A stretch of 41,320 bases of DNA from an uncultured Opitutia bacterium (GTDB lineage Bacteria; Verrucomicrobiota; Verrucomicrobiia; Opitutales; UBA953). Under the pieces are notes generated by a model, which was given only the letters and a program-made list of their open reading frames with translations, did no database searches and was not told the DNA's origin. Positions 3-39,707 of the stretch are shown piece after piece (positions within the stretch are counted from its first letter, which is position 1; each line of letters opens with the position of its first letter). The stretch covers positions 1 to 41,320 of the forward strand of contig CAINMU010000081.1 of assembly GCA_903850885.1 (NCBI GenBank), read 5' to 3'. The translations under genes were made by a program, and so were the position numbers.

Positions 3-3000
3 ACTAAGCGCACCTTTTATAACTTCCGCCTGACGCTCGAGTATAAGCTCATAGGCACCGAAGGCTTCGTGAACGCCGGCGTCCAGTTCCGTAGCCTGCG
101 TGCCACCAATCCGCCTAACGAGATGATCGGCTACCAAGCCGATATTGGTCAAGGTCACACGGGTTCGCTTTACGACGAATCTCGCCGTAAGAAATTTCGG
201 GCACGTGCCGGCAGCGGCTTCGGCGGCATCGGTGTCAAGGACGAGTCGGAGATCGCCGACCTCGAGAAGAAGGGCGAATGGAACAAGTATGAAATCCGGG
301 CCGAAGGACCTCGCATCACGATTCGCCTCAATGGCAAGCAGACGCTGGACTACACTGAGACGGATCCTAGTATCGACGACGCGTATGGCCTGATTGGCCT
401 GCAGATCCACGGCAACAACAAGGCGGAGATTCATTACCGGAACATCGTCCTCGACCCGCTGAACGACCTGCCGGTCACAACCAAGGAGACGGTCATGAAC
501 CGCTTCGGTGACGTGAAGTCTGCATGGGTACCTCCAGCATCCTTTAAGGATGGCAAATTCGACCTCGGTCAGGACGAAGTCGTCGTGTTCATCGGTCAGG
601 AGAATTTGGTCCGTGAGGCCAAGTCCGGCGAAATCGAGTCGCGACTCGCCGCAGCCTTCGCCGCCAAGAACCCTGTCTTCCGCTCCATGGCCTGGGAGGC
701 AGATACCGTCCATGAGCAGTGGCGCGATCTGAATTTCGGTCCATGGAAAGGGCAGCTCGAGGCCGCTGGAGCGACGACCTTGATTGTCCAATTCGGTCAA
801 GCGGAAGCGCTCAAGGGGCAGGGTGGATTGGCCAAGTTCAAAGCCGACTATCACAAGCTGCTCGATGACCTCAGTCGCCACACGCCCCGCATCGTGCTGT
901 TATCGCCCGCTGGTTTCATGCCTTCCGGGCGTCTACCGGACCTCACGACTTCTGAACATCGGAAGAATCTGGCTGATTACGCTTCTGCCGTAGCCGAGAT
1001 CGCCCGGCTGCGCGGGCTTCCTTACGTGAACCTGACCGAGGTCACCCAGAATGAACCCTCGACTGACGGACTCCATCTTTCCGCCCATGGTCTGGAGATT
1101 GTCGGCCGCGAGGTCGCATCCGCCTTGGGACTGCCTGCCAAGTCTGAGCCCTCCGAAATAGTCCGGGCGGCTATCGTCGAGAAAAACCGGCTCTGGGCGG
1201 ATTGCTGGCGTCCCGCTAATTGGTCCTTCGTCTATGGAGATCGGATTTCTCAGAACTATGGCAAAGGCTTCGGACCGACGCCGTCCCTGAAGGAGAATTT
1301 CGAAGCGTATAAGCCTTTGGTCGCCGAATGGGATCGGCATATCCTGGCCTTGGCTCGCGGGGAGCAATCGGTCGCGCCTGCGCCGCAAGCCGGTCCCGTC
1401 GTCAGTACGGAGAAGGTCATGACCGCCGCGGAAGAACTCGCGACGTTCAAGGTGGCCGACGGTTTCGAGGTGAATCTCTTTGCCGACGAATCCTTGGGCG
1501 TGGCCAAGCCGACGCAAATGGCGTGGGATGCGAAAGGTCAGCTTTATATCTGCTGCTCGCCGACTTACCCGCAGGCCGTTCCGGGCGTGAAACCGCGGGA
1601 TTACATCCTTCGGCTCGAAGACACGGACGGCGATGGCAAGGCCGACAAAGCGGTGCGTTTCGCCGAAGGCCTGACGATGGTCCAAGGCGTCGAACCTCTG
1701 ACTGACGAAGCTGGCAATATCTCGATCCTCGTTTGCGACTTTGATCGCCTGCTGCTCTTGACGGATAAGGATGGCGACGGCAAAGCCGATGAGACGACCG
1801 TGCTGATGTCCGGATTCGGCGTCGGTGATACGCACCAGTTGCTCAATTCCATCTGCCATGGTCCGGATGGCACCCTTTGGATGAGCCAAGGCTTGCATGC
1901 AATCACGCGGGTCGAGACGCCGTATGGTATCGTGAGCCTGCCGAAGTCCGGCCTGATGCGGTACGATTTCAAGACCCAGCGCCTCCAGCCTTTCTTCCAA
2001 TACGGCAAGGCGGGGCATAACTGTTGGGGGGTCGCGTTTGACGATTTCTTCCAACCCTTCCATAAAAGCGGCGATCGGGTCGCCGGTTATTACAGCTTAC
2101 CTGGCTTGGGCGCGATTGAGACGCCTGATGAATATGCAGGGACGCATTCATTGTTCGATTCGCCGCTGAAATCTAATTCCATTGATATCATCGGAACCAA
2201 GGCGATGCCGGCCGAATTGCAGGGTGCGGCCCTCATCGGGGGCTATTATGGTAACACCCTCGATCTGCATCGTTTCGTCGACGAGGGTTCAGGTTTTAAG
2301 ACCGAGCGCATCGTCAGCCCGATCATCTCCAGCAGCAAGGCCTTCCGTCCCGTGGACGTTTCGGTCGGCCCGGATGGCGCCCTGTATGCCTGCGATTGGT
2401 TTAATGCCGTCATCGGCCACTATCAGGCAAGTTATGCCGATCCGCGCCGCGATCGTTCGCATGGGCGCATCTGGCGTATCACCGCGAAAGGCCTGCCGAC
2501 CGTGAAGCAGCCCGACCTCGGGTCGATGAATGAGAGCGAACTTTTCGCACAGTTGGCTTCGCCTGAACGCTGGACGCGTTACCAAACTCGAAGAATATTA
2601 TTCCATCGCCCGACCGAGAAAGTCGTCGCCGCCGCCGATGCTTTCCTGGCCAAAGACCGTCCGGATGCACAATTCCTCGAAGTCATGGGCGTTTTACAAT
2701 CCCATGCCGCGATCCGTCCCGGTGTGTTGGATTATCTGCAAGGTTCGACGGATTTCCGCATTCGATCCTATGCCGCCCGTGTTGTCGGCGAATGGTCGAC
2801 GCAACTCCCGGACACCCAGTCACGTCTGGCCAAGGCTGTCGCCGATGCGCATCCCCGCGTCCGCTTGGAAGCCGTCGTGGCCCTCAGTCATGTCGGTGGT
2901 CAGCCGTCGTTGCGCACGGCGTTGATGGCTTTAGATCAGCCGACAGATAAATTCTTGGATTACGCCTTACGCCAGACCGTGCGGCATCTTTTGCCGACTG

Positions 3001-3443
3001 CAGGAAAGATCGCGGCTGAATTGCCGGCGCCACAGGCCGCTTATTTGAAGAAAGTTGCCGCATCTGGGCCCGTCGTCGTTTCGCCTGGTCAGGCGATCTA
3101 TGAAGGACTCTGCCTTAACTGTCACCAAGCTGCGGGCCAAGGCCTTGCCGGAGTCTATCCGCCGTTGGCCAAGAGCGAATGGGTCGCAGGCGATGCCCAA
3201 GTCCTCATCCGCATTACCATGCATGGCTTGGCCGGACCGACTAAGGTTCAGGGTAAGGATTACGGCCTCGTCCCGATGCCGCCCATGGGACTCGACGACC
3301 AGCAGTTGGCGGATGTCCTGACTTATGTCCGCAGCGCTTTCGGCAATAAGTCTCACGCTATTAAGGTCGACGAAGTCAAAGCCGTGCGCGAAGAGACTAG
3401 GGCTCGGACAGCTCCGTGGTCGGCGGTGGAGTTAGGGAGGTGA
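3..3443 (+). CDS. DUF1080 / SGNH-like / PVC-type dehydrogenase / HEAT / cytochrome c fusion protein (5' truncated)
   Basis: The frame is open from the window edge, so the true start and any signal peptide lie upstream; 1146 residues are visible. Domains in order (residues counted from position 3): DUF1080-like beta-sandwich (1-155), an SGNH-hydrolase-like domain (about 185-380), a sorbosone/glucose-dehydrogenase-like propeller of the putative membrane-bound dehydrogenase type (about 470-830) with two DxDGDGKAD acidic loops (near 1620 and 1764), HEAT-like repeats (about 842-1010), and a C-terminal c-type haem domain with CLNCH at 3111-3125 and a downstream PMPPMG that could supply the Met ligand. 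SGNH block I reads GQEN instead of GDS (588-605), so the catalytic serine is missing, although DGLH is kept near the domain end. Family knowledge suggests a periplasmic sugar-oxidising protein feeding electrons to haem; the substrate is unknown. It converges on the EamA gene across a palindromic repeat. Confidence 0.85.
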   Translation, partial: TKRTFYNFRLTLEYKLIGTEGFVNAGVQFRSLRATNPPNEMIGYQADIGQGHTGSLYDESRRKKFRARAGSGFGGIGVKDESEIADLEKKGEWNKYEIRAEGPRITIRLNGKQTLDYTETDPSIDDAYGLIGLQIHGNNKAEIHYRNIVLDPLNDLPVTTKETVMNRFGDVKSAWVPPASFKDGKFDLGQDEVVVFIGQENLVREAKSGEIESRLAAAFAAKNPVFRSMAWEADTVHEQWRDLNFGPWKGQLEAAGATTLIVQFGQAEALKGQGGLAKFKADYHKLLDDLSRHTPRIVLLSPAGFMPSGRLPDLTTSEHRKNLADYASAVAEIARLRGLPYVNLTEVTQNEPSTDGLHLSAHGLEIVGREVASALGLPAKSEPSEIVRAAIVEKNRLWADCWRPANWSFVYGDRISQNYGKGFGPTPSLKENFEAYKPLVAEWDRHILALARGEQSVAPAPQAGPVVSTEKVMTAAEELATFKVADGFEVNLFADESLGVAKPTQMAWDAKGQLYICCSPTYPQAVPGVKPRDYILRLEDTDGDGKADKAVRFAEGLTMVQGVEPLTDEAGNISILVCDFDRLLLLTDKDGDGKADETTVLMSGFGVGDTHQLLNSICHGPDGTLWMSQGLHAITRVETPYGIVSLPKSGLMRYDFKTQRLQPFFQYGKAGHNCWGVAFDDFFQPFHKSGDRVAGYYSLPGLGAIETPDEYAGTHSLFDSPLKSNSIDIIGTKAMPAELQGAALIGGYYGNTLDLHRFVDEGSGFKTERIVSPIISSSKAFRPVDVSVGPDGALYACDWFNAVIGHYQASYADPRRDRSHGRIWRITAKGLPTVKQPDLGSMNESELFAQLASPERWTRYQTRRILFHRPTEKVVAAADAFLAKDRPDAQFLEVMGVLQSHAAIRPGVLDYLQGSTDFRIRSYAARVVGEWSTQLPDTQSRLAKAVADAHPRVRLEAVVALSHVGGQPSLRTALMALDQPTDKFLDYALRQTVRHLLPTAGKIAAELPAPQAAYLKKVAASGPVVVSPGQAIYEGLCLNCHQAAGQGLAGVYPPLAKSEWVAGDAQVLIRITMHGLAGPTKVQGKDYGLVPMPPMGLDDQQLADVLTYVRSAFGNKSHAIKVDEVKAVREETRARTAPWSAVELGR

Positions 3444-3450
3444 ACGCAAA

Positions 3451-3481
3451 GGTAGGGACGGCACGTGGTGCTGTCCCTACC
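3451..3481. repeat. Intergenic palindromic repeat, copy 1
   Basis: A 14-bp arm GGTAGGGACGGCAC, a 3-nt loop and the arm GTGCTGTCCCTACC form a hairpin with a single G-T wobble; flanking AA/TT can extend it to 3449-3483. It sits between two convergent genes, where it could act as a transcription barrier in both directions. A nearly identical element lies at 14321-14350, so it is a dispersed repeat and not a one-off terminator. No long T tract follows on either strand. Confidence 0.8.
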
Positions 3482-3482
3482 T

Positions 3483-4370
3483 TCAAACCTTCTGCTTCCT
3501 TGCCAACGATTGTACCCAGGCGACGCCAGTAAGGGTGACTACGCCACCGACCAGGGTCATGGCCGAAGGACGTTCGCCGAGGATCATCCAGCCGAAGAGC
3601 ACCGAGAAGACAGGGATCGCATAGACCGCGCTCATCACGGTCGTGATCGGTAGCTTCACCAGCACCCAGGACCAGATCGTGTAACAAAGAGCGGCGGGGA
3701 CCATGCCGAGGAAAACGAGGTGAATCCAGCCCATGCCTGAGAGACGTCCGGCCGTGCCGATGAGATCTTCGGAGAACGGCAGCAGCCCGAGAGTGCCCAC
3801 CCAGATGGCCCAAGTGGTCACATCAACCGCCGCATAGCGTTGGGTAAGGGCCTTGCTGATCAAGGTCTGCACGGCCGCACAGAAGGCCGCCCCGAGAATC
3901 AGGAACGACCCGAAGTTGAGGGTCAGTCCCGCCTCGGAGCCGGCGGCGGTGAGTACGACTCCGGTCATCGAGATTCCGATGCCGAGCCAGGCGAGCAGGC
4001 CGACGCGTTCACGTCCGGTGAGTACGCCGAGCAGGATGACCAGCACGGGGATGCAGGAGATGAGCATCGAGCCCGTGCCGGCGTTCACGGTGCGTTCACC
4101 GTAGTTGATACCGAGGTTGTAGAGGCAAAAGCCGAAAAGACCAAGCGACGCAACTTTAGGCCAGTCGCCTCGCGCCGGCATGGGGCGTCCGCGATAGAGC
4201 CAGATTGGTAGCATGACCGATGAGGCGATGAGGTAGCGGAGTGCGCCAAGTTGGCCAGCACCGACTTCGGGCAGGACTGCGCGGACGTTCACCCACGACA
4301 TGCCCCAGGCCACGACGTTGAAGAACATCGCGAAGGTGGCCCACCGCCGGGTGGAAGAAGCCTCGCTCAC
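3483..4370 (-). CDS. EamA/DMT-family transporter
   Basis: A 295-residue hydrophobic protein with two EamA repeats and about ten membrane segments, the usual size of the drug/metabolite transporter superfamily. The substrate cannot be read from sequence. The GTG start at 4368-4370 overlaps the stop of the upstream Tm-1-like gene as GTGA, which indicates translational coupling and a shared transcript. As the last gene of the unit with the Tm-1-like and PEP-hydrolase-like proteins, it probably moves the compound they act on or a product. It ends at the palindromic repeat facing the convergent dehydrogenase gene. Confidence 0.88.
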   Translation of the reverse strand: MSEASSTRRWATFAMFFNVVAWGMSWVNVRAVLPEVGAGQLGALRYLIASSVMLPIWLYRGRPMPARGDWPKVASLGLFGFCLYNLGINYGERTVNAGTGSMLISCIPVLVILLGVLTGRERVGLLAWLGIGISMTGVVLTAAGSEAGLTLNFGSFLILGAAFCAAVQTLISKALTQRYAAVDVTTWAIWVGTLGLLPFSEDLIGTAGRLSGMGWIHLVFLGMVPAALCYTIWSWVLVKLPITTVMSAVYAIPVFSVLFGWMILGERPSAMTLVGGVVTLTGVAWVQSLARKQKV

Positions 4371-5572
4371 GAACGACAGCCGATCAGCTCGATCAACTTA
4401 TACGCACACGCCTGGGCGAACTCCTTGTCGTTGATCGCCAAGTCGAATTCCTGCACCGGAACCGTGGCGTTCGCCTTCAGCGACGTGAAAAGCGCCTCAT
4501 CGGCGGCGCTATCGTGGAAAGGTTGACCGGGTGCACTGATCACGGAAATCGCTTTACGCGGAATCATGATAGCGGTGCCAGCACGGTAGCTGTTGGCCTT
4601 GTTCGCGATAATCTCGCCAAGCTGTCGGCATTCGTCGGCCGTCGTGCGCATGAGCGTGATCTGCGGGTTATGAATATAGAAATTACGTCCCTTGAATTTG
4701 GCCGGCACCGAGGCCATCTCGCCGAAGTTGACCATGTCAAGGCAACCAGGGGCGACGACGACGGGCACGTTCGCTTTGGCCGCGGCGTCCATGCGGTCAG
4801 GGCCGGCGTTGAGATTTCCGCCGACCAATTCATCGGCCCATTCGGTCGTCGTGAGGTCGAGTACGCCCGCAACGATACCGCTTTCGATGATTGATTCCAT
4901 GATGCGTCCGCCGGTGCCGGTCGCGGCAAAGACGAGGACTTCATAGCCCGCCGCCTCGAGGACTTTTTTTGCTTCGGTGACGCAGGCAGTGGTGTTGCCA
5001 AATTGGCTGGCGACGATGAGGGGCTTGGCGGTGCCGATTTCCGGCTCAGCGCCGACCATGCCGCAGATGGCACCCGCGGCCCGGGTGAAAATGACGCGCG
5101 AAAGGCGATTGAGCCCGGCGACGTCAGCGATGCTGGGCATCATCGTGATATCTTTCGTGCCGACATAAGCTGCGATATTTCCTGCCGCCAGGGTCGAAAC
5201 CATCAGTTTGGGGAAGCCGAGGGGTAGGGCGCGCATGGCGGCCGTGCCGATGGCGGTGCCGCCTCCGCCTCCGAGGGAAATGATACCGTGGATACGTCCG
5301 TCGGCAGCCAGTTTGGAGACGAGGGCGGGAGCGGCGTGGGTCATTGCGATGACGCAGGCACCGCGATCCTTTTTTGCCATCAGCGAAGCGAGATCGAGGC
5401 CGATGGCGGCCGCGACTTGTTCACGGGTGATGTCGGGGTTGACCGTGGGCGGACCGCCCGTGCCGACGTCAATCAGTAAGGTCTTATGGCCATGCTGGGC
5501 GATGAGTGCCGCCACGAAGGCATGTTCTTCGCCCTTGGAATCAAGCGTGCCGAGAACTGCAATCGTGGCCAT
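4367..5572 (-). CDS. Tm-1-like ATP-binding domain protein (UPF0261)
   Basis: This 401-residue protein matches the UPF0261/Tm-1-like family along its length: an N-terminal GTLDSKGEEHAF segment, a glycine-rich SLGGGGGTAIGT stretch in the first half, and a conserved second half with DLTTTEWADELVGG. The family is known from the N-terminal part of tomato Tm-1, which binds ATP and blocks tomato mosaic virus replication; its bacterial role is not established. It lies 7 bp downstream of the PEP-hydrolase-like TIM-barrel gene, the partner domain that is fused to it in plants, and overlaps the EamA gene. The start is ATG at 5570-5572 with no Shine-Dalgarno motif. Confidence 0.88.
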   Translation of the reverse strand: MATIAVLGTLDSKGEEHAFVAALIAQHGHKTLLIDVGTGGPPTVNPDITREQVAAAIGLDLASLMAKKDRGACVIAMTHAAPALVSKLAADGRIHGIISLGGGGGTAIGTAAMRALPLGFPKLMVSTLAAGNIAAYVGTKDITMMPSIADVAGLNRLSRVIFTRAAGAICGMVGAEPEIGTAKPLIVASQFGNTTACVTEAKKVLEAAGYEVLVFAATGTGGRIMESIIESGIVAGVLDLTTTEWADELVGGNLNAGPDRMDAAAKANVPVVVAPGCLDMVNFGEMASVPAKFKGRNFYIHNPQITLMRTTADECRQLGEIIANKANSYRAGTAIMIPRKAISVISAPGQPFHDSAADEALFTSLKANATVPVQEFDLAINDKEFAQACAYKLIELIGCRS

Positions 5573-5579
5573 GGTCGGT

Positions 5580-6452
5580 TCAGAAGAACATACGCTTCAC
5601 CGGAATCTGCTTAAAGCGTTGGGTTAGATCCGTGAGCGATTGTTCGACGGCCATTCGCTCGAGGCTCGAGGCCCCCACGAAACCATCGGTGTCGGTATGC
5701 TCATTGATATACGCGGCGTCTTCGGGCGTATTGATCGGTCCACCGTGGCTGAGGAAGATGAGGTCTTTGCGGACGGACTTGGCGGCATCAATGATACTTT
5801 GGGTGATCTTCGCCGCTTCAGGCAGGCTCATCGTGGCGTTGGTCACGCCGATGGAGCCGCCGACCGTGGTGCCTACGTGCGCGATGATGACATCGGCGCC
5901 GGATTCGGCCATGGCTTTGGATTCTTCCGGCGAGCCCACGTAGACGATCGTGAACATGTCCATCTTGCGGGCGAGGGCGATGGTTTCGAATTCCTTCTGC
6001 ACGCTCATGCCGGTCTCTTCAAGGACTTGGCGGAATTTGCCGTCGATGATGGTGTGGGTCGGGAAATTATTGATACCGGAGAAGCCCATGTCTTTCACCT
6101 TACCGAGCCAGTGCCACATGCGGCGTCGTGGATCGGTGGCGTGGACGCCACAGATGACGGGGATTTCTTCGACGACTGGGAGGACTTCATATTCGCCAAT
6201 CTCCATCGCGACGGCATTCGCATCACCATAGGCCATCATGCCGGCCGTGGAGCCGTGGCCGGCCATGCGGAAACGGCCGGAGTTATAGACAATGACCAGA
6301 TCGGCGCCGCCGCGTTCGATGAATTTGGCGCTGATGCCAGTGCCGGCGCCGGCCGCGATGATCGGCTGGCCTTTCGACATTGTGTTGCGTAGGCGCTCCA
6401 CGACTTCGAGTCGGGTGTAAGGGTTTCCTTTTCCAGTCCAGGGGTTGGGCAT
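5580..6452 (-). CDS. Phosphoenolpyruvate hydrolase-like TIM-barrel protein
   Basis: A 290-residue protein of the TIM-barrel/PEP-hydrolase-like family (PF09370). Visible conserved stretches are IIAAGAGTGISAKF, VYNSGRFRMAGHGSTAG and YGDANAVAMEIGEYEVLP. The family corresponds to the C-terminal half of plant Tm-1. The reaction is uncertain, and the name reflects similarity to PEP mutase/hydrolase barrels. It is first in a tight three-gene unit (7 bp to the Tm-1-like gene, then the EamA transporter). The N-terminus MPNPWTGKGNPYTR fits the family, so ATG at 6450-6452 is likely correct. An AraC regulator is divergent and is the obvious candidate controller. Confidence 0.88.
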   Translation of the reverse strand: MPNPWTGKGNPYTRLEVVERLRNTMSKGQPIIAAGAGTGISAKFIERGGADLVIVYNSGRFRMAGHGSTAGMMAYGDANAVAMEIGEYEVLPVVEEIPVICGVHATDPRRRMWHWLGKVKDMGFSGINNFPTHTIIDGKFRQVLEETGMSVQKEFETIALARKMDMFTIVYVGSPEESKAMAESGADVIIAHVGTTVGGSIGVTNATMSLPEAAKITQSIIDAAKSVRKDLIFLSHGGPINTPEDAAYINEHTDTDGFVGASSLERMAVEQSLTDLTQRFKQIPVKRMFF

Positions 6453-6613
6453 AGTAGTATGAGAGGGGGGTGAGTGTGGTCAGGGTTGCGCTCGGCAACT
6501 TCAGCGCTTATGCAAGGGGAGTGGCCCGTAAGAGCGATTTAAATCATTACAGCGAGACGCAACTTCGTCATCCTGAAACTGACATCGAGAACCCACGTTC
6601 CCGCAGGAAAATC
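6453..6613. promoter_or_regulatory. Probable divergent control region between the TIM-barrel unit and the araC-type gene
   Basis: About 160 bp if the regulator starts at 6614. It holds a perfect 10-bp AT-rich palindrome, GATTTAAATC, at 6536-6545, unusual against the GC-rich surroundings and a plausible promoter or operator element. The plus frame stays open upstream to a GTG at 6470, so part of this stretch could instead be coding. Confidence 0.4.
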
Positions 6614-7426
6614 GTGGTAGCGGCGGATTATAAGGATGAACGCCCCTGGGTGCTTTCCGGGGTGCGCTGCAAGGAATTAGGGCTCTTTGAAATCGCCCAC
6701 CTTGGCGTCGCCGAGATGCTCGCTCCGTATGAAGTCGTCCGTTCCAATCAGAGCGGTGCCTTCTTTATGGCTTGTCTGTCCGGTCAGGGGCAAATCTGGG
6801 TCGACGGCCGTTGGCGGACCCTCTCGGCGGGCCAAGCTTGCCTGCAGCCAGCCGGCATCCGTAATTCTTTCCGCATCGGTCGAAGTAAGCGCTGGGATTT
6901 TTGCTGGGTGCGTTTCAGCGGAGGCGTTCGTTCCAATACCATCTTCCGGGCCAGCTCACCGGTACTTTCCGACTTTGATGCCGAACCCTTACGAGCCGCC
7001 ATCACCGGACTCATCGCCGAACTCAAGGGCGCCAAAGTATCCCGTCGTAATCACCAGTGGATCGAACTGGCCTATGATTATGTGCGAAGTTTCGCCGGTA
7101 GTTTTCGCGGCGATCCGCGGGTGCAGCGTCTGTGGGATGAGGTTCATGGACGCCTTGATTTCGCCTGGGACACCCAGTCGCTGGCTCGTCAATCCGGATT
7201 AAGCTTCGAACACCTTCGTCGCCTTTGCCTGAAAGAGATCGGCCGCACGCCGATGAATCATCTAACCCATCTACGGATCCAACAGGCGATTCGGGTTATT
7301 AGTGAATCCGACGACAAACTGGCCGTGATTGCCCGCAAGGTTGGTTTCGCGAATGGCAATAGCTTTTCTTCGGCCTTTAAAAAGTTGACCGGCCACGCCC
7401 CGTCCCATTTCAGAGCCGAGGTCTGA
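6614..7426 (+). CDS. AraC-family transcriptional regulator
   Basis: An N-terminal cupin-like sensing domain (SGQGQIWVDGRWRTLSAGQA) is followed by a C-terminal pair of helix-turn-helix motifs: LARQSGLSFEHLRRL and the terminal AVIARKVGFANGNSFSSAFK, the AraC/XylS signature. The frame is open back to GTG 6470 (318 residues), but that start leaves only 17 bp to the divergent TIM-barrel gene. I prefer GTG at 6614, preceded by AGGA at a spacing of 5, which gives 270 residues and frees an AT-rich palindrome as promoter. It likely controls the divergent Tm-1-like unit, possibly also the 1708-residue protein gene that starts 94 bp downstream. The ligand is unknown, though regulators of this type often sense sugars. 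Confidence 0.85.
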   Translation: MVAADYKDERPWVLSGVRCKELGLFEIAHLGVAEMLAPYEVVRSNQSGAFFMACLSGQGQIWVDGRWRTLSAGQACLQPAGIRNSFRIGRSKRWDFCWVRFSGGVRSNTIFRASSPVLSDFDAEPLRAAITGLIAELKGAKVSRRNHQWIELAYDYVRSFAGSFRGDPRVQRLWDEVHGRLDFAWDTQSLARQSGLSFEHLRRLCLKEIGRTPMNHLTHLRIQQAIRVISESDDKLAVIARKVGFANGNSFSSAFKKLTGHAPSHFRAEV

Positions 7427-7520
7427 AATTCGTCCCGAATGTGCATCTGAGAGGGGTCGGGTTGTAGTTCGGGGAGTCGCTAAGTCTTGTAGGTATCGGT
7501 CGGGTTACTTTGATGAGGGT

Positions 7521-10500
7521 ATGCTTTCCCGCTTCGCCCCCCTCTTGCGCCTCGCCATGGTCTGTGCCACCGCCGTGCTTGGCGCCGCGCCAATCAAGGT
7601 CACCGTCATCGCCGATGATCATGCTGCGGTCAAATCGCTCGTCGCGGAACTCACCGCCGCCGGTGCTATCGTCACCGAGGCGAATCGCCCGAGCGAAATT
7701 ATCGACCTGAAGCACGAGAAGGACGAAGTCATCGTTCTCTATCGTAAGGACTACACCCCGTATGAAGTCGGCGATCGGGCCGCCCTAGCGGATCTCTCTC
7801 TCCGTGGTATCAGCTTCGTCGCCCTGCGCGGCGCCATCGCTGGACCTTCGGCCAGCTGGGCTAAAGATACTTTCGGTGCGGGTTGGACGCCAGATAGCCG
7901 GCGCTTCCGCGCCCTGATGATGCTTAATGTCCGCACCGACTCCCATCCGTTGGCCAAGGATGCTTCCACGTTCGACGTCACCGACCAGACCGTCTTCGAA
8001 CTCGATCTCAACGAGAAGATTCAAGTGCTGGCTTCATCGTTCACTTCGAAGGTCGGCGCCAATCGCAAGAAAATCACGGAAGTCGCCGACAAGGCTTCGG
8101 TCTATGACATCCAGCCACAAGCCTGGGTGTTCGAGAACGACCGCCTTCGTTCCGCAGTGTTCCTGCAGGGTGAGGCTGAGACGCTCGCGCACGCCAGCTA
8201 CCGCACCTTTATCAAGCGGGGCATCGCTTGGGCGGCCCGTCGCGCCAATGTCGATGAACTCTGCACGCCCAAAGATCTCGTGGACATGCGTTACCCGATC
8301 GGTGGACCCAGTCGTGCCGAAAAGGCCATCGCCGCTTTCCAGATGCAACCCGGCTTCAAGGCCAGCGTTATTTCGAACGAGCCCCTGATTAATAAGCCCA
8401 TCGCCGTGCAGTGGGATGAACGCGGTCGCCTGTGGGTGGCTGAGACGCCAGAATATCCGAACGGACGTCGCCCGCTCACCGCTGAGTCGTGGCGCGAAGG
8501 TGGCGTTCTGGTTCCGGGTAGCTACGATCGTCCGGCACAGGATAAGATCAGCATTCTGACTTCCAGCAAAAATGACGGCGTCTTCGATCAGAAGAAGATC
8601 TTCCACGAAGGCCTCGAATTGATCACGGGTTTCTGTCACTACAAGGATGGCGTCATCGTGGTCTGCCAGCCTCACATCGTCTGGCTCCGCGATACGGATG
8701 GCGACGGCAAGGCTGACAAGGAAGTGGTTCTCTACGGCGGCTTCACCCCGGGCGACACGCACTTCGTAGCCAATCACTTTGTCCTCGCTCCCGACGGCTG
8801 GGTCTACGCCAGTAACGGTGGTGGCGGCGAAGTCTTCCCCGCCTCCAATCCCGAGCGCGTAGTCCGCATCTCCTCCGGAACCTTCCGTTTTAAGCCGGAC
8901 GGATCGGCCATCGAACAGATCGCCTCTCAGGGCGGCAATAGCTTTGGCAACGAAGTTACCAGCAAGATGGAACTCTTCCATGGGAAAGCTACCAACGGTA
9001 ATCCCATCCAACACGTCGTGTTACCTGAATCCATTCTCGCCAAGGCACCTGGTACGCCCGCCAAGGCCTTCAGTTCCGTCAATCCGCGGCGTCCGGTCCT
9101 GCGTGCCGACCTGCCTGACCGCGCCCCGCTCCTGCAGATCGACCAAGTCGGCTATTACACCGCCGCTTGCTCCGTGGCCGTGCAGGAGCATGGCGCATGG
9201 CCGGCAGAATATCGCGAAGGCATCTTCACCAGCGAACCGATTCTCGACATCATCCACTTCGAAAAGCTGACCCCGAGTGGTCCGACCTTCCTGGGTGAAG
9301 TCACCATCAAGGACCGCGAATGGCTGCGCTCCATGGATCATTGGTTCTGTCCGATCGACGTCTCGTTCGGTCCGGACGGCGCGATGTATATCCTCGATTT
9401 TTATACCCCCGTCGTCGCGCACAACGACACCCGCGGTCCGATGCACAGTAAGTCCGGCGCTTCCGTCCGTCCGGATCGCGAGCACTACTTCGGCCGCATC
9501 TACCGCATCCAGCATGAGTCTGCTCCGAAGTTCGATATCCCCGACCTTTCGAAGGCCGATGTCGCTGGTCTCGTCGCTGCGTTCGATCATCCGAATAAGG
9601 TCGTGCGCTTTAACGCCCTGCGCGTGCTCATGGATAAGGATGCTGGCCTGCTCGCCTCCGCCGTCGGCCCGCTCGTGATTAAGGTCCGCAGCGACGCCAA
9701 AGCGGAAGCTCGTATCCAGGCCCTCTGGGCTCTCCAGCGCCTCGATCGCCTGGAGGACGGCTTGCTCCGTGTCCTTTGTACCGATGCCGATCCGGATGTG
9801 CGTAAGAACGCCTTCCTCGTCGCCGAGGCCAGCCACAGCAAGCTGCCGACCGAAGTCTTCGCTAAAGCTTTGGACGACGCTGAACCGCGTGTCCGCTTGG
9901 CCGCCCTGCGCGCCATGGGCGCCGCACCGCTCGAAGCCTCTGCCGGTGCACTCCTGCTGTCTGCTCAAGCCCGACTGACCGATGACTGGTCCAAGGCCGC
10001 TGCCACGGCCGCTGCGGCCGCTAATCCCGGTCCTGTCCTTGCTGGCATCCTTGGTGGTCCGGCCGATGCCGCTGCGGCCGAGTTCGCCCGCACGCTCGCC
10101 GCTTCCCTGAATGGAGATGACGCTTCGCTCGTGCTTACCGCCGCTGCCAAGTCCGCGAATAAACCGGTCGCGGTCGCCGTCATCCGTGAGATCGCTTCCC
10201 GTCGTGTAGCCGCTCCGGCTTTGCTCGATGCTTCGCGTGCCGCCTTACGACCTTTGCTCGTCAATCCGGATGAGGCCATTTCTGGGTCTGCCGCCTCGAT
10301 CGCGGCGCTCTGGTTCACGGATGGCAGCCTGAAGTCTGAACTCGCCGCGGTGGCCGCTCGTCTGGTGCCCGTGCTCAGCGATGCTAAGGCTTCGGTCGAA
10401 GCGCAGGTCGCCGCTGCCCGCGTACTCGTCCTGCTGCGTGATGTCGACCCGCAGGTCCGTCCGGCGCTCGCCAAGGCCCTGGCCTCTTCTCATGAACCAG

Positions 10501-12647
10501 TCGCCGTCGCTACGGCTGGCGCCCTTGCCGCTACTGGCGATGCGTCCGTCGGTAAGATGCTCTACGCGGCTTTCCCAAAATCGACCGGACCCTTCCGTTC
10601 TACCTTATTCTCCGCACTCGTCGGTCGCTCGGAGTGGGCAGGACTGGTGCTCGACGCCTTGGAAGCGAAGTCGCTCTCTGCGATGCAGCTCGGGCCCATG
10701 CAGGTCTCGCAGCTCGTCCGCCATCCAGACGAAGCCGTGGCCAAGCGTGCCGCCGCTGTTCTTTCGAAACTCAACGCTGGCAGTAGCCCGGCCAAGGAAG
10801 ATCTCGTGGCTAAGCTACTTCCCGAGGTCGAGAAGCCTGGCGATATCGCCAAGGGCAAGGAACTCTTCGTCGCGATCTGTCAGACTTGTCACATGATTGG
10901 TAATGTCGGCAATGACTTTGGTCCGAACCTACAGGGTATTGGTTCGCACCCCGCGGCGGAACTGCTGGTGCATATTGTGGATCCGAACCGTATGGTCGAC
11001 GACGAGCATCGCACTTGGAACTTCAAGATGAAGGACGGTACCCAGTATTCTGCCCTCATCGGTAGCGAGAACCCCAGTTTCGTGAAGCTCAAGTTGCAAG
11101 GGGGTTTATCAGCCGAACTCAAAGTCGGTGATATCGTCAGTCGCGAGCGCAGTCCAAACTCTCTCATGCCTGAAGGCTTCGAAGCCCTCGGCGCCGAAGG
11201 CCTCCGTAACGTCATCGCTTACCTCCGCAGCGTCGCCATCAGCCCCGAGGGCGTGACCGTGGGACGTTTCCGTCTGCTCGACCTTGGTGCTGCCTTCACC
11301 GCTTCGACATCCACCGGCCTTTATGCCAAAAAGGAATCGAAGAAAGATACCTTGCCCTTCGCGAAGTTCGGCCAAGTCGAATCGAATGGCGTCCCGTATA
11401 AGGTCGTCGACCCCAAGACCGCGAAGGACGGCCTGAACGTCATCGTCCTCAAAGGGGGCGCCTTCAAGGAGGCTTATTCGCGGACTCTGCCCCAGAAGGT
11501 CGAGATTCCGGTCGGCTCCGTGGCCAATCGCATTCACTTCCTCGGCGCCGTCGGCGGCTGGGGTGCGCATGGTGACGCTATCGCCATGATCGCCGAGGTG
11601 CATTTCCTGAGCGGCAAGGTGCAGAAGAAGGTCTTCTACGGTGCCCGCGACTTCGCCGACTACAATGGCACGGGCGACGTGCCCGGTTCGAAGTCTGCGA
11701 GTCAGTTGCTGACCGGCGATAGCCGGCAGGTACGCACGCTCTGGATCCCGGTCGAAAGCGACGAGATCATCGATAAGCTTGTGCTGAGTTCAGCCGACAC
11801 CGAAATCGCTCCGACGACCGTGGCAGTAACCATTGAGATCGGTGGTCCGCCCAATCCGCCCCGCGGCAAGGATGAGACTGCACCAAATGGCGGCAAGAAA
11901 GGTAAGGGTAAGACCAACGACGGACCGAGCGACCTGCTCCCCAAGGATAATCCCAAGACCACCCAGGCTTACGGTCAGTCCTTTGGGCCGCGTAAGGCTG
12001 GTCAACTCCGTGTGCTCTTCGCTGGAGCCGGTAGTTCGCATAACTTCCCCACCTTCTTCCTTGGTACGGATGCGCAGACCGCCAAGGCCGCTGGTTACGA
12101 TGTCGCCTCGACGCCGAACCTGAAAGAAACCCTCGCGCTGCTCCCGCAGGCCGACCTGTTCGTCTTCAGTGGCAATCATGGTCAGTTCGGCACGCCCGAA
12201 TTCCAGAAGGCCATCCGTGACTTCGCGGCGGCCGGGAAGGGTATCGTCCTTCTGCATGCGGCTACCTGGTATAACTGGCCGCTCGAGACCAAGTATAACG
12301 ACGAGTTCGTTTGCGGCGGCTCGCGAGGACATGGACACAGCGATTTCACCTTCACCGTTACCAAGGCCGCCCACCCGATCATGAAGGGAGTGCCCGCCAC
12401 CTTCGTGGTCAACGACGAGAGCTATAACATCGAACTGACTCGACCCGAAGGCGCCGAAGTCCTCGGTACGATCCCGCGTCAGGATCCCAAGGAAGGCCTG
12501 TCGAACATCTTGCCGTCCGTCTGGACTGTGCGCTATCCCGGTACCCGCGTCGTTTGCATCGCCCTCGGCCACGACGAGAAATCTCATGACCATCCGGCCT
12601 ACAGGCAGCTCCTCCTCAATTCACTCCTGTGGGTCGCGAACAAGTGA
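7521..12647 (+). CDS. ThuA-like / PVC-type dehydrogenase / HEAT / cytochrome c / ThuA multidomain secreted protein
   Basis: A 1708-residue protein with an N-terminal signal peptide (hydrophobic to about residue 23). Domain order: a divergent ThuA-like Rossmann domain (about 24-240), a membrane-bound-dehydrogenase-type propeller (about 269-665, with DTDGDGKAD from residue 391), long Ala-rich HEAT repeats (about 680-1085), a PVC-type haem domain with CQTCH at residues 1120-1124 (10878-10892), a beta-rich jelly-roll-like module (about 1240-1440, with IHFLGAVGGWG), a Lys/Gly/Pro-rich linker, and a canonical ThuA domain (1495-1708, with LLHAATWYNWP, GGSRGHGH and HPIMKGVP). ThuA proteins take part in disaccharide use through 3-keto intermediates. 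I infer a periplasmic sugar-oxidising machine passing electrons to haem. It shares its core with the fusion at the left edge. Confidence 0.87.
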   Translation: MLSRFAPLLRLAMVCATAVLGAAPIKVTVIADDHAAVKSLVAELTAAGAIVTEANRPSEIIDLKHEKDEVIVLYRKDYTPYEVGDRAALADLSLRGISFVALRGAIAGPSASWAKDTFGAGWTPDSRRFRALMMLNVRTDSHPLAKDASTFDVTDQTVFELDLNEKIQVLASSFTSKVGANRKKITEVADKASVYDIQPQAWVFENDRLRSAVFLQGEAETLAHASYRTFIKRGIAWAARRANVDELCTPKDLVDMRYPIGGPSRAEKAIAAFQMQPGFKASVISNEPLINKPIAVQWDERGRLWVAETPEYPNGRRPLTAESWREGGVLVPGSYDRPAQDKISILTSSKNDGVFDQKKIFHEGLELITGFCHYKDGVIVVCQPHIVWLRDTDGDGKADKEVVLYGGFTPGDTHFVANHFVLAPDGWVYASNGGGGEVFPASNPERVVRISSGTFRFKPDGSAIEQIASQGGNSFGNEVTSKMELFHGKATNGNPIQHVVLPESILAKAPGTPAKAFSSVNPRRPVLRADLPDRAPLLQIDQVGYYTAACSVAVQEHGAWPAEYREGIFTSEPILDIIHFEKLTPSGPTFLGEVTIKDREWLRSMDHWFCPIDVSFGPDGAMYILDFYTPVVAHNDTRGPMHSKSGASVRPDREHYFGRIYRIQHESAPKFDIPDLSKADVAGLVAAFDHPNKVVRFNALRVLMDKDAGLLASAVGPLVIKVRSDAKAEARIQALWALQRLDRLEDGLLRVLCTDADPDVRKNAFLVAEASHSKLPTEVFAKALDDAEPRVRLAALRAMGAAPLEASAGALLLSAQARLTDDWSKAAATAAAAANPGPVLAGILGGPADAAAAEFARTLAASLNGDDASLVLTAAAKSANKPVAVAVIREIASRRVAAPALLDASRAALRPLLVNPDEAISGSAASIAALWFTDGSLKSELAAVAARLVPVLSDAKASVEAQVAAARVLVLLRDVDPQVRPALAKALASSHEPVAVATAGALAATGDASVGKMLYAAFPKSTGPFRSTLFSALVGRSEWAGLVLDALEAKSLSAMQLGPMQVSQLVRHPDEAVAKRAAAVLSKLNAGSSPAKEDLVAKLLPEVEKPGDIAKGKELFVAICQTCHMIGNVGNDFGPNLQGIGSHPAAELLVHIVDPNRMVDDEHRTWNFKMKDGTQYSALIGSENPSFVKLKLQGGLSAELKVGDIVSRERSPNSLMPEGFEALGAEGLRNVIAYLRSVAISPEGVTVGRFRLLDLGAAFTASTSTGLYAKKESKKDTLPFAKFGQVESNGVPYKVVDPKTAKDGLNVIVLKGGAFKEAYSRTLPQKVEIPVGSVANRIHFLGAVGGWGAHGDAIAMIAEVHFLSGKVQKKVFYGARDFADYNGTGDVPGSKSASQLLTGDSRQVRTLWIPVESDEIIDKLVLSSADTEIAPTTVAVTIEIGGPPNPPRGKDETAPNGGKKGKGKTNDGPSDLLPKDNPKTTQAYGQSFGPRKAGQLRVLFAGAGSSHNFPTFFLGTDAQTAKAAGYDVASTPNLKETLALLPQADLFVFSGNHGQFGTPEFQKAIRDFAAAGKGIVLLHAATWYNWPLETKYNDEFVCGGSRGHGHSDFTFTVTKAAHPIMKGVPATFVVNDESYNIELTRPEGAEVLGTIPRQDPKEGLSNILPSVWTVRYPGTRVVCIALGHDEKSHDHPAYRQLLLNSLLWVANK

Positions 12648-14410: not shown

Positions 14411-15187
14411 TTACTTAATTGGGGAGTAATCGGTAGGGACGAGGAACTCAGACTTTACGCCGTCCTTGATCGTGAGCGAACCACTGGCCTTCTTCTCGGA
14501 GGCTTCCTTGGCGGCAACCCAGATCGGGTCGGCCCGGAAAGCGTCGAAGCTGGCCTTGGCTGCTTCGGCGGACTTGTGGGTCAGTAGATAGATGAGCGTA
14601 TTGCCGGCCACGTAGGGGCTCTTCGCGCCCTTTTGGTCGTCGGCGAGGTTCCAGTAGGTGACATTGGTCATGCCATGTTTCTCAAAGAGTTTGAGGGTGT
14701 GATCACGGAAGCGGGCGTTAAGGTCGGGCAGGCGGCCGGCTTCGGTTGTGTAGGTTCGAAGTTCGAAGACGCCGCCGTAGTTCTTCGCTTGAGCGAGGGC
14801 TGAGTATTCGGTGGCCGTGAGGAACGCGTTGGAAATATGATCGATGAGCTTGCCGTCTTTTTCTGATTCCTTGGCGGCAGCTTTCCAGTCTGGATCCGAA
14901 CCGAAAGCTTTCCAGGCGGCGTCGTGGGCGGCGCGATCAGGGAAAGCGAGGAAGTAGACCAGCTTGTTCTCCTTGTTGTCGAGTGGGACGAAATAGCCCA
15001 GGCTCGTCATGCCATGTTTCGCGAAAAGCTTGAGGGTGTGGTCGCGGAAACGCGCATTCAAGGCGTCCAGCTTTCCGGGTTTAGCGTAGTAGACACGCAT
15101 CTCGAAAAGACGGGTGTCAGGCTTGTCGGCAGCGACGACGGTCGCTGACATCAGGCCTAAGGAGAGGAGGGCGAGCAGGGATTTCAT
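14411..15187 (-). CDS. Secreted tandem NIPSNAP-domain protein
   Basis: 258 residues with a signal peptide (MKSLLALLSLGLMSATVVAA). Two copies of the NIPSNAP ferredoxin-like domain follow: one starting near LFEMRVYYAKPGKLDALN and one at VFELRTYTTEAGRLPDLN. Both carry the identical stretch NARFRDHTLKLF followed by KHGMT, so the gene arose by internal duplication. NIPSNAP proteins in PVC bacteria are often exported and associated with sugar-degradation loci; no reaction is assigned. It is the last gene of the ABC-transporter unit, 6 bp after the binding-protein gene and just before the terminator. Confidence 0.9.
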   Translation of the reverse strand: MKSLLALLSLGLMSATVVAADKPDTRLFEMRVYYAKPGKLDALNARFRDHTLKLFAKHGMTSLGYFVPLDNKENKLVYFLAFPDRAAHDAAWKAFGSDPDWKAAAKESEKDGKLIDHISNAFLTATEYSALAQAKNYGGVFELRTYTTEAGRLPDLNARFRDHTLKLFEKHGMTNVTYWNLADDQKGAKSPYVAGNTLIYLLTHKSAEAAKASFDAFRADPIWVAAKEASEKKASGSLTIKDGVKSEFLVPTDYSPIK

Positions 15188-15193
15188 GGTAGA

Positions 15194-16156: not shown

Positions 16157-16165
16157 GTCTAAGGA

Positions 16166-17101
16166 TTAGGAACGGGATTGCCGACGGTCGAGCCAAACCG
16201 CACCCACAATGATGACCCCCTTGATTACGGCCTGATAATAGGACGAAACGCTGAGCAGATCCAATCCGTTGTTGATTTCGCCGATGAGCACGACGCCGAG
16301 GATGGTACCGGTGACGGTGCCTATGCCGCCAGCTAGGCTCGTGCCGCCGATGACCACGGCGGCGATGGCATCGAGTTCATAGGCGATGCCGGCGTTAGGT
16401 TGTCCGGTAGTGGTGCGAGCCGCCAGTACGACGCCGGCCAAGCCAGTCAGTAAGCCGCAGGTCGTATAGGCGAAAAGTTTGACTTTTGTCACCGAGATGC
16501 CGGCGGCTCGGGCGGCATTCTCATTACCGCCGACCGCATAGATGTAACGTCCGAGTCGAAAATTACTTAGGAAAATCCAAGCAATTAAAGCCACGCCGGC
16601 GAAGCAAAGTAGAGGAATCGGAATACCCAAAACATCCCCGGCTAGGTTAGTCAAACTGGGTGACATGTCGGCGACGGGTCGTCCGCCGCTGGCAATGAGC
16701 GCTAAGCCGCGTGCAACGGTCATCATGCCTAAGGTCACGATGAAAGGGGCGACGCCGCCTTTTGTCACGAGTACGCCATTCGTAATTCCGCAGGCGGCAC
16801 CGGTGGCGAGTCCGATGAAAATCGGGATCATGACGTTATGTTCGCCCGGGTGAGCAAAGGTCGCGCACGTGACGCCACTCAAGGCGACGACCGCACCGAG
16901 GGAAAGGTCTACGCCGGCGGTAAGGAGGACGAACGTGACGCCGATGGCCAGGATGCCGTTAATCGAAACCTGGCGGGCGACATTCGTCAGGTTGGAGAGG
17001 CTCAGAAATGTATCCGTGGTGAGCGAGAGTCCAAGCCCGATGAGCAGGATAACGATCAGGATTCCGAAACGGTGGAGCAGATTACGATCGAGGGTTGGCA
17101 T
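16166..17101 (-). CDS. Sugar ABC transporter permease (RbsC-like)
   Basis: A 311-residue inner-membrane permease of the branched-chain/ribose type (BPD_transp_2). Conserved segments are [23 protein letters not shown] near the N-terminus, [15 protein letters not shown] in the cytoplasmic coupling loop, and [22 protein letters not shown] towards the C-terminus. About eight to ten hydrophobic helices are visible. It lies 5 bp after the ATPase gene and 9 bp before the binding-protein gene, giving a complete ABC importer of the CUT2 class. Confidence 0.93.
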
Positions 17102-17106
17102 AATGA

Positions 17107-18582: not shown

Positions 18583-18592
18583 CGGATGAGGG

Positions 18593-19459
18593 TTATTTGA
18601 CCGGAAGAGACGGCATATCCTTGGCCACGTCGACAGGCCAGGATGTCAGCGGGCGGATTTCAAATCGGCGATATTCGCATTCGGCTGCCTCGGATTGGAT
18701 CTGGAGCTTACCGGCTTTCATGGGGACCTCGACAGTCGAGCCTTTTTCACGATAACGGGAATTCAAGATGACGTTGACGGTGTGTCCATTGAGCCGGAAG
18801 ACCGCGTTGCCGTTGAGGGCGAAACATTCGATAGTGTTCCATTCACCGGAAGGTTTTTCATGATAATCTGGGCCGTGCCACACTCGAGCCGTCACCGTCT
18901 TGGCGGGCGCCTTGGCATCATAGATTTGCTTCTTGATAGGGTCGTCGGTACGTATCGGGGTTTCACACATGGCGCCGGCGAGCGGCCACCAATCACCAAT
19001 GTCGCCTTCCTGGACTTGGAGTTCTTGACTGCGCATCCAGTATTTAGCCTGGGCACCGTGTTCGCCGATACAGAAAATCAGGATACCATTATCTCGGACG
19101 GTGTTGGTGCGAGGTTCCCAGCGTTTTACGCCCCAACGCTGTTCGGTGCGCAGGTGGAAATTATCATAGCTTTTAAGCGTCGTGACGGCCCCGTAGACCT
19201 GCCCGCTGATATGGAGAATGGTTTCACCGGCTTCTTGGCGAGTCGTGAAAACATTCAGCGGGTCGTTGTTTAGCCCGAGTGCTGGGTCGTCTTTAGCTTT
19301 TGCTCCTCGGACATAGCCGGGCAATTCGTAAGCGCGATGGACTGGCCCGAGCCACTTTTCCCATTGGGAAAGTTTGGCATCGAGCAGGGGGGTGAATTCT
19401 TCGGCGGCGGGTGCGAGGGTAACGCTGGCGGCGAAACTTAGGACGGCAAGGAGGCGCAT
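18593..19459 (-). CDS. Secreted DUF1080 (3-keto-disaccharide hydrolase family) protein
   Basis: 288 residues with a signal peptide (MRLLAVLSFAASVTLAPAA) followed by a single DUF1080 beta-sandwich: FTPLLDAKLSQWEKW at the start, then AKYWMRSQELQVQEGDIGDWW, GEWNTIECFALNGNAVFRLNG and a C-terminal EYRRFEIRPL. PF06439 is named for hydrolysis of 3-keto-glycosides, but many members are uncharacterised. It probably acts in the periplasm. The gene is 4 bp downstream of the esterase and 10 bp upstream of the sugar ABC ATPase, so cleavage outside and uptake of the product are likely coupled. Confidence 0.88.
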   Translation of the reverse strand: MRLLAVLSFAASVTLAPAAEEFTPLLDAKLSQWEKWLGPVHRAYELPGYVRGAKAKDDPALGLNNDPLNVFTTRQEAGETILHISGQVYGAVTTLKSYDNFHLRTEQRWGVKRWEPRTNTVRDNGILIFCIGEHGAQAKYWMRSQELQVQEGDIGDWWPLAGAMCETPIRTDDPIKKQIYDAKAPAKTVTARVWHGPDYHEKPSGEWNTIECFALNGNAVFRLNGHTVNVILNSRYREKGSTVEVPMKAGKLQIQSEAAECEYRRFEIRPLTSWPVDVAKDMPSLPVK

Positions 19460-19463
19460 GGGC

Positions 19464-20399: not shown

Positions 20400-20451
20400 G
20401 GGGGAGATTATGAATATGAAACCCGGACGAAAGGACACAAGCCCAAGCGGG

Positions 20452-21759: not shown

Positions 21760-21787
21760 CCCTCTTAGCAGAAATCAGACCGGGTGC

Positions 21788-23224: not shown

Positions 23225-23229
23225 GGAAA

Positions 23230-38327: not shown

Positions 38328-39707
38328 ATGACACCCCCGCTCAATCGTCGCGATTTCCTTAAATCAGCCGGCATGGCTTCGGCCGCTTTTGCCGTCGCCC
38401 GCCCTTGGCTTAATTCTTCCGCTCGGACGGTCTCCCCGAACGAGAAGTTGAACATCGCCGCCATCGGCTTCGGTGGCGTCGGGGGAAGCAATGTGCGCAA
38501 TTCAGCCGAGGAAAACATCGTCGCCCTCTGCGACCTGGATTTAAAGCGCTGCGCCAGCACGATCAAGTTGCAGCCTAAAGCCGCGCTCTTTACCGACTTC
38601 CGCGAGATGCTGGAGAAGCAGAAAGATATCGATGCGGTCATCATCGCCACGCCGGACCACTCCCACGCTTATATCGCCATGGAATGCATGCGAGCGGGTA
38701 AGCACGTTTACGTTCAGAAGCCAATTGCGCACTCCGTTTTTGAAGCCCGCACGCTCACCGAAGCTGCCCGGAAATATAAGGTTGTTTCGCAGATGGGCAA
38801 TCAAGGCCACTCCGGCGAAGGAATCCGTCAGGTCACCGAATGGATCGCCGCCGGGTTGATCGGACAGGTTCGTGAGGTGCACGCTTGGACGAATCGTCCG
38901 ATCTGGCCGCAGAGTTCGGAAATGGAACGTCCGAAGGATGTGCAATCGCCTCCGGAAGGGATGGATTGGAATAAGTGGATCGGTCCTGCCCCGTCGCGCC
39001 CGTTCAACAGTGTTTATCATCCAGGCAAATGGCGCGCCTGGTGCGATTTCGGTACCGGTTCCTTAGGTGACATGGGTTGCCATATCATCGACCCGATTTT
39101 CATGGCATTGAAACTGCGTTATCCGACGAGCGTCGAAGGCAATGTGTCAACCGTCTACGAGACCTTTGGTCACGAAACCAAGAGCAAGAACGAATGTTAT
39201 CCGCGGTCCTCAATCGCCCGTTTCAAGTTCCCCGCTCGCGAAGGCTTGGTCGCCGTCGAACTTACCTGGTGGGATGGCGGCTTGATGCCTTCCCGCCCGG
39301 ATGAATTGGAAGAAGAAGATTCCTTTGGCGACCGTAATGGCGGCTGTTTGTTCATCGGCGATAAGGCGAAAATCGTTTGCGGATGTTACGGTGAAAAACC
39401 TCGAATCTTAAATGCCGACCTGCGGCAGGAAGCTAAGAAACTCGCGAAGACGATTCCGCGGATTCTTGGTGGCAGCACCGGACACGAGAAGGATTGGATC
39501 CGCGCCTGTAAGGGCGGTGAAGCCGCTTCGTCGAATTTCGATTACTCGGGTCCTTTATCCGAAATGGTACTGATGGGTAATCTCGCGATTCGTTACCCTG
39601 ATCGTAAGTTACTCTGGGATGGCGAAAAGATGGAAGTCACCAACGATAAGGCCGCGAACGCCTATGTGCGTCGCCAATATCGCGAAGGGTTTGGCTTAGG
39701 CGTCTGA
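38328..39707 (+). CDS. Tat-exported Gfo/Idh/MocA-family oxidoreductase
   Basis: 459 residues with a twin-arginine signal (NRRDFLKSAGMASAAFAVA). The NAD(P)-binding Rossmann motif IGFGGVGGSN follows near residue 46, then IIATPDHSHAYIAMECMRAGKHVYVQKPIAHS containing the conserved KP Lys, and GSLGDMGCHIIDPIF in the C-terminal domain. These enzymes oxidise sugars or glycosides, often at C3, with a tightly bound nucleotide that would have to be loaded before Tat export. It stands alone between mreB and uppP with its own terminator. It might supply 3-keto-glycosides to the DUF1080 and ThuA proteins, which is inference. Confidence 0.92.
   Translation: MTPPLNRRDFLKSAGMASAAFAVARPWLNSSARTVSPNEKLNIAAIGFGGVGGSNVRNSAEENIVALCDLDLKRCASTIKLQPKAALFTDFREMLEKQKDIDAVIIATPDHSHAYIAMECMRAGKHVYVQKPIAHSVFEARTLTEAARKYKVVSQMGNQGHSGEGIRQVTEWIAAGLIGQVREVHAWTNRPIWPQSSEMERPKDVQSPPEGMDWNKWIGPAPSRPFNSVYHPGKWRAWCDFGTGSLGDMGCHIIDPIFMALKLRYPTSVEGNVSTVYETFGHETKSKNECYPRSSIARFKFPAREGLVAVELTWWDGGLMPSRPDELEEEDSFGDRNGGCLFIGDKAKIVCGCYGEKPRILNADLRQEAKKLAKTIPRILGGSTGHEKDWIRACKGGEAASSNFDYSGPLSEMVLMGNLAIRYPDRKLLWDGEKMEVTNDKAANAYVRRQYREGFGLGV

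Follow-up and report, generated by a model that had tools for sequence, protein, structure and literature searches.

Two propeller–HEAT–haem fusion proteins of an uncultured Opitutia bacterium and a possible role for one of them in periplasmic 3-keto-glycoside breakdown

The window, meaning the whole 41,320-nucleotide stretch analysed here, is the complete contig C81 of a 2.34-Mb MAG from an uncultured freshwater Opitutia bacterium. It encodes two giant exported proteins on the plus strand, ORF A (3..3443, 1146 aa) and ORF B (7521..12647, 1708 aa), which share a core of propeller, HEAT repeats and haem domain. This core had been recognized in an earlier, sequence-only reading of the same DNA; its observations are confirmed by Pfam and NCBIfam scores, down to the exact positions of the haem motifs (CLNCH at 3111 and CQTCH at 10878), and its interpretation is supported in part. 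Both proteins belong to TIGR02604/DUF7133, a known family without established function. Against the cut-off of 122.2 bits for TIGR02604 ('PVC-type heme-binding'), ORF A scores 194.3 and ORF B 222.5 bits, and the Pfam scores for DUF7133 are 205 and 335 bits, respectively. The core of the two proteins is the same as that of the family, whose paralogues vary in their N-terminal modules. The haem domains differ in kind, being class-I PF00034 in ORF A and TIGR02603 in ORF B.

ORF A is arranged in the order DUF1080, SGNH fold, sGDH/AA12-type propeller, HEAT repeats and cytochrome c. Its reading frame is open at the first base of the contig, and the gene is thus without its own start; the missing 62 aa, supplied by relatives, comprise the signal peptide and the beginning of DUF1080. 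Although the signal peptide and the first 46 positions of the PF06439 profile lie off the contig edge, the remaining DUF1080 (3-keto-disaccharide hydrolase) domain (3..449, aa 1–149) scores 92.2 bits against a gathering cut-off of 26.8, in agreement with the N-terminal DUF1080 of the sequence-only reading. By both sequence and structure comparison its closest solved chain is 4jqt, BT3469, with which it has a YDE-x-RR motif in common, and 40 of its 152 positions are conserved at 98.5% or more in an alignment of the best 80 of 140 relatives. The structure model of ORF A was made with 61 sequences (pLDDT 84, pTM 0.76).

The second domain of ORF A, absent from the sequence-only reading, has an SGNH/GDSL fold (549..1136, aa 183–378; PF13472, 37.4 bits) and matches 4q9a structurally with a Z of 21.0. 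The catalytic Ser is replaced, mostly by Glu or Thr, in an otherwise invariant G-Q-x-N. None of the 80 homologues that cover the stretch has the block I Ser nucleophile, and nearly all have GQEN or GQTN; G-Q-x-E and x-G-x-H are kept in the family. The paralogous SGNH domains of the same genome (on contigs C66, C129 and C146) likewise have no Ser, and a normal, active esterase is ruled out by its loss from homologues and paralogues alike. The Ser-less domain is either a binding domain or a new kind of active site. It is followed by the six-bladed propeller (1428..2500), the HEAT repeats (2510..3000; PF13646, HEAT_2), which appear as helical repeats in the model, and the class-I cytochrome c domain (3081..3335; PF00034, Cytochrom_C, 43 bits), whose CxxCH motif is conserved in 74 of 75 homologues. 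This haem domain resembles the CuNIR haem domain 3ziy (E 3e-22), groups structurally with Ralstonia nitrite reductase in the model, and has a relative in 7w2j_C, the cytochrome subunit of fructose dehydrogenase (E 4e-8).

ORF B carries ThuA domains at both ends, as the sequence-only reading had it, in the order ThuA, propeller, HEAT, TIGR02603 haem and ThuA. A Sec-type signal peptide (7521..7586, MLSRFAPLLRLAMVCATAVLGAA) precedes a divergent N-terminal ThuA-like domain (7587..8234), which on its own scores 34.0 bits for PF06283, barely above the cut-off of 33.4, whereas the other domain scores are far above chance; the alpha/beta model of this domain has a pLDDT of 84–91 across its first 80 residues. 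The propeller (8316..9518), the HEAT repeats (9756..10800; PF13646, PF02985) and the TIGR02603 haem domain (10839..11231; 106.1 bits against a cut-off of 68) lead to the C-terminal ThuA domain (12080..12644), which scores 99.9 bits when scanned alone, and the whole protein scores 124 bits for PF06283. An AraC-type regulator lies ahead of ORF B on the same strand. In several congeners ORF B lies near ORF A, and in others the two are on separate contigs. We note that the ORF B orthologue at G016:C17:22225-27100 is split into frames with internal stops, and that the one at G025:C25 is split or interrupted; these broken copies may reflect decay or assembly errors.

The space between the two genes (3483–6452) is occupied, on the minus strand, by an EamA transporter, UPF0261 and PEP_hydrolase (TIM barrel), a block conserved in several congeners. 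A minus-strand cluster at 14411–26331 holds NIPSNAP, a ribose-type sugar ABC importer, an esterase, an MFS protein, DUF1501, a PSCyt1/PSCyt2/PSD1 (DUF1549/1553) protein with an inserted Laminin_G_3 domain, and a stand-alone DUF1080 protein (18593..19459, minus strand; PF06439, 56.8 bits). A Gfo/Idh/MocA protein with a Tat signal is encoded at 38328..39707 on the plus strand, and its nearest curated family is the NCBIfam glycoside 3-dehydrogenase BT_2158, for which its 525 bits fall below the cut-off of 750. It has no link to ORF A and may be a further 3-keto-forming enzyme of the periplasm encoded on this contig. The stand-alone DUF1080, the Tat-exported Gfo/Idh/MocA and the sugar importer named in the sequence-only reading are all real.

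In the predicted models, both proteins contain the six-bladed propeller fold of the sGDH type. The ORF A propeller is nearest to AA12 (6i1t; Z 24.1, rmsd 3.0, 286 aligned residues), followed by the PQQ domain of fungal pyranose dehydrogenase (6jt5, Z 23.6), whereas below these top matches the Z values merge with those of unrelated propellers at 21–22. The ORF B propeller is closest to the PQQ sugar dehydrogenases (3a9g; Z 27.0, rmsd 3.2, 283 aligned residues), with Z values of 26.2 to AA12 and 25.5 to sGDH. Structure comparison, which the sequence-only reading had proposed for both full proteins, places the propellers with the PQQ sugar dehydrogenases and DUF1080 nearest BT3469, with the ORF B model spanning aa 23–690 only (pLDDT 69). 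Because aligning the propeller and GSDH profile to profile yielded short local matches only, residues were mapped in a multiple alignment through intermediate sequences. On this alignment, and on sequence only, His144 of sGDH, the catalytic histidine, corresponds to H611 of ORF A, invariant in 81 of 81 sequences, and to H414 of ORF B; N673 of ORF A is conserved as well. Of the PQQ-binding arginines, ORF A has lost some and ORF B all: in place of Arg228 of sGDH, ORF A has His or Ala and ORF B has Gly, and Arg406 corresponds to R782 in ORF A and to Cys in ORF B. In addition, PqqE is absent from the genome itself and from the 36 congeners searched, and none of the 11 ORF-A-bearing genomes of the class is among the phylum-wide positives, although the same search gave clear positives in five genomes of one other family (f29). 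The partly lost arginines and the lack of PqqE weaken the case for a PQQ enzyme, and the word 'dehydrogenase', applied to the propeller, is therefore a statement on its fold only.

These data bear on whether the propeller itself is the oxidizing enzyme, as the sequence-only reading had assumed. It would then act as an AA12/sGDH-like glycoside or aldose dehydrogenase with scavenged PQQ or another cofactor, passing electrons to its own haem and leaving the product to be cleaved by DUF1080. In fungal pyranose dehydrogenase such a propeller is joined to a haem, like the propellers described here, and the fold matches, the invariant catalytic histidine and the conserved N673 speak for the same chemistry. 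However, the altered arginines, the lack of PQQ synthesis in the organism as judged from PqqE, the merging of Z values with unrelated propellers, and a dedicated flavin dehydrogenase adjoining ORF A (described below) all count against it, and we regard oxidation by the propeller as quite unlikely.

The architecture of ORF A is ordinary for its group, though functionally obscure. A search of GTDB species genomes found 140 relatives, and most of the best 80 match end to end, with 45–58% identity outside the genus; the full length is kept in about 60 loci. They occur in Prosthecobacter, Brevifollis, Chthoniobacteraceae, Limisphaerales, a Planctomycetota MAG and several Cyclobacterium (Bacteroidota). 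In the collections searched, the nearest named relative of the genome is the MAG Opitutia UBA7397, among MAGs that are mostly from lakes. The seven Cyclobacterium loci (L121, L122, L125, L126, L128, L133 and L138) hold full-length orthologues at ~50% identity, which suggests horizontal transfer. Five MAGs named Akkermansia muciniphila (L083, L105, L107, L119 and L124) carry ORF A genes close to those of Opitutae or Verrucomicrobiales MAGs, and their labels look wrong. The genome itself has 25 DUF1080 places, further fusions of DUF1080 with DUF7133 (C74, C85) and with cytochrome c (C129), and SGNH–DUF7133 fusions (C66, C129, C146). A unique fusion in ORF A is ruled out by these sister proteins and the widespread full-length relatives.

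The many paralogues with differing N-terminal modules, together with the Ser-less SGNH domain, would also suit an electron carrier or cell-surface scaffold that is not itself catalytic, receives electrons from several dehydrogenases and binds through interchangeable modules, namely ThuA, the pseudo-SGNH domain and DUF1080 as a CBM66-like lectin. An overlap of DUF1080 with CBM66 has been noted (PMC5673643). However, the strong conservation of DUF1080 and the YDE-x-RR motif that it shares with BT3469 suggest catalysis, and we consider a purely binding role unlikely.

A candidate oxidizing enzyme lies just beyond the contig edge (1..2). In relatives, ORF A is immediately preceded on its own strand by genes for a secreted alpha/beta-hydrolase, a GMC oxidoreductase and a Gluconate_2-dh3 protein with a Tat signal; the last two, which we take to represent the subunit families of LacA and LacC, occupy this position in 16 of the 18 congener loci with enough upstream DNA, the two exceptions being L083 and L107. 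The genome itself has exactly one PF13618 (Gluconate_2-dh3) and one PF05199 (GMC) gene, both on the minus strand in the first 2.7 kb of another contig (G000:C141). Reverse-complemented, this contig aligns to the congener locus L073 up to position 7754, and the window starts at 8093, with a gap of ~0.3 kb. On this synteny, rather than on read-through, the pair probably adjoins ORF A here as well. The locus L086 keeps the pair and lacks the downstream block of EamA, UPF0261 and PEP hydrolase, so that the upstream link looks the more durable. The closest solved relative of the GMC protein is the large subunit of fructose dehydrogenase, FdhL (E 2e-41). Fructose dehydrogenase (FdhL/S/C) has a cytochrome subunit, to which, as noted above, the haem domain of ORF A is related, whereas no separate cytochrome c gene was found in the cluster upstream of ORF A; the candidate for this part is the ORF A haem domain.

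Several observations limit this link. In 15 of 18 congeners, Gluconate_2-dh3 is separated from ORF A by a terminator-like hairpin with a T run, which makes co-transcription unlikely and weakens the idea of a single operon. In the hairpin at L073 7714–7745 and its equivalents in 14 other congeners, the sequence of the stem varies by species while hairpin and T run persist. In loci outside the genus, no GMC relative was found beside ORF A in flanks of up to 10 kb, and no enrichment was found among its neighbours. In an even draw of the class, ORF A is present in 11 of 188 genomes, and PF13618 occurs in 6 of these 11, against 23 of the 177 without ORF A (Fisher p 0.002). This co-occurrence, a count of the sort that the sequence-only reading had suggested, comes almost wholly from one family and is gone without it (p 0.58).

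Genes resembling the parts of ORF A are found unfused elsewhere. GMC relatives were compared in two bands of identity. In the upper band (at least 33%), DUF1080 lies beside the GMC gene in Pseudoalteromonas, Xanthomonas sacchari, Palleronia, Spirosoma and Runella, and ThuA is near it in Novosphingobium; neither DUF1080 nor ThuA was found within 8 kb of a Hymenobacter relative. In the lower band (below 30%), DUF1080 is beside none of four. The Pseudoalteromonas proteins, the best plasmid relatives (51% identity), come with a separate DUF1080, Gluconate_2-dh3, Gfo/Idh/MocA, two sugar isomerases, a transporter and an AraC regulator, and the Xanthomonas sacchari cluster comprises GMC, Gluconate_2-dh3, DUF1080 and a separate small cytochrome c. 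Runella rosea carries a DUF7133–HEAT–cytochrome gene and a DUF1080 gene 24 bp apart, with Gluconate_2-dh3 and GMC nearby; these two genes are the unfused counterpart of ORF A. The adjoining flavoprotein pair and the unfused relatives support, for ORF A, the earlier suggestion that the fused haem collects electrons. The same synteny, with the DUF1080, cytochrome c, Gfo/Idh/MocA and sugar isomerases that accompany the pairs of relatives, upholds the 3-keto-sugar theme for ORF A; for ORF B the theme has the ThuA domains as its one foothold.

A related system is known from Caulobacter, in which fitness data tie a DUF1080 hydrolase to the adjoining lacABC, and the DUF1080 protein BT2157 is a 3-ketotrehalose hydrolase (PMC9007349). 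Like the lactose 3-dehydrogenase LacABC with its DUF1080 protein, the genes described here combine GMC, Gluconate_2-dh3 and DUF1080 in the periplasm; unlike in that system, DUF1080 and cytochrome c are joined in ORF A in one chain with propeller and HEAT repeats, and the pair is probably transcribed separately from ORF A. In Thermogutta, DUF1080 was proposed as a xanthan-backbone glycosidase (PMC5673643). A literature search for TIGR02604 in combination with DUF1080 or 3-keto pathways found no direct study.

The propeller family could alternatively consist of glycosidases, the TIGR02604–HEAT–cytochrome chain hydrolysing beta-glycosides directly with DUF1080 and ThuA as accessory binding domains. 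We hold this to be very unlikely, as it leaves the conserved haem unexplained and draws on one report, which raises a worry of contamination; E. coli BL21 is lacZ+. The report concerns Lac161_ORF7 (AGW45552), a verrucomicrobial protein of 109 kDa that, like ORF A, has TIGR02604, HEAT_2 and Cytochrom_C in one chain, and that was purified and described in 2017 as a beta-galactosidase releasing glucose from lactose (Km 1.8 mM, kcat 13.2/s; PMC5342196). The sequence-only reading had known of no characterized example of the fused form; for the shared core this does not hold, although Lac161_ORF7, assayed as a glycosidase without redox, is described with neither DUF1080 nor ThuA. We treat the result with caution because the host was a derivative of E. 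coli BL21(DE3), BL21(DE3)pLysS under IPTG, and the paper itself remarks that E. coli LacZ has a similar Km (PMC5342196).

Starting from the observed domain content, the adjacency in synteny, the unfused equivalents and the lack of PqqE, we propose that ORF A is a periplasmic protein with two jobs, hydrolase and electron acceptor, in a 3-keto-glycoside pathway whose oxidizing enzyme is a separate flavoprotein, with ORF B as a paralogous ThuA chassis; we give this proposal about an even chance. The GMC large subunit would leave the cell together with the Tat-signal-bearing Gluconate_2-dh3 small subunit, as in the LacA/LacC type, and we infer that their complex would oxidize C3 of a glycoside, although the sequence does not tell C3 from C1 or C5 specificity. 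In a presumed physical complex, the flavoprotein would hand its electrons to the ORF A cytochrome c domain, which would fill the role that a separate cytochrome plays in LacABC-type enzymes, and from there they would reach the respiratory chain. Cleavage of the 3-keto-glycoside would fall to the DUF1080 domain, and the propeller, HEAT repeats and Ser-less SGNH domain would most likely bind substrate and partners. The kinship of haem domain and GMC protein to the cytochrome subunit and FdhL of fructose dehydrogenase argues for this flavoprotein pathway; the hairpins, the missing pair in L083 and L107, the lack of a link outside the genus and the one-family co-occurrence argue against it, as does Lac161_ORF7, which reportedly cleaves lactose without such partners. 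ORF B is probably a chassis paralogous to ORF A that carries ThuA modules and serves another 3-keto-sugar-like intermediate; this role is a guess by analogy, taken from its ThuA domains.

The protein family is already known; what is new, and can be tested, is the role of a fused hydrolase and electron acceptor beside a LacA/LacC-type pair. That neighbouring pair and the unfused genes of Runella give a testable role to the many-copy TIGR02604/DUF7133 family, with its dozens of candidate copies per genome. More tentatively, and with the odds against it in our view, the whole family may be a general periplasmic chassis that accepts electrons and cleaves products in oxidative (3-keto) glycoside breakdown, with N-terminal modules determining the substrate and the fused haem receiving electrons from separate flavin or Gfo-type dehydrogenases. 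The flavoprotein-pathway reading also opens a route to re-testing the puzzling report of beta-galactosidase activity in Lac161_ORF7 and, if true, would help to explain the oxidative attack on glycans by PVC bacteria.
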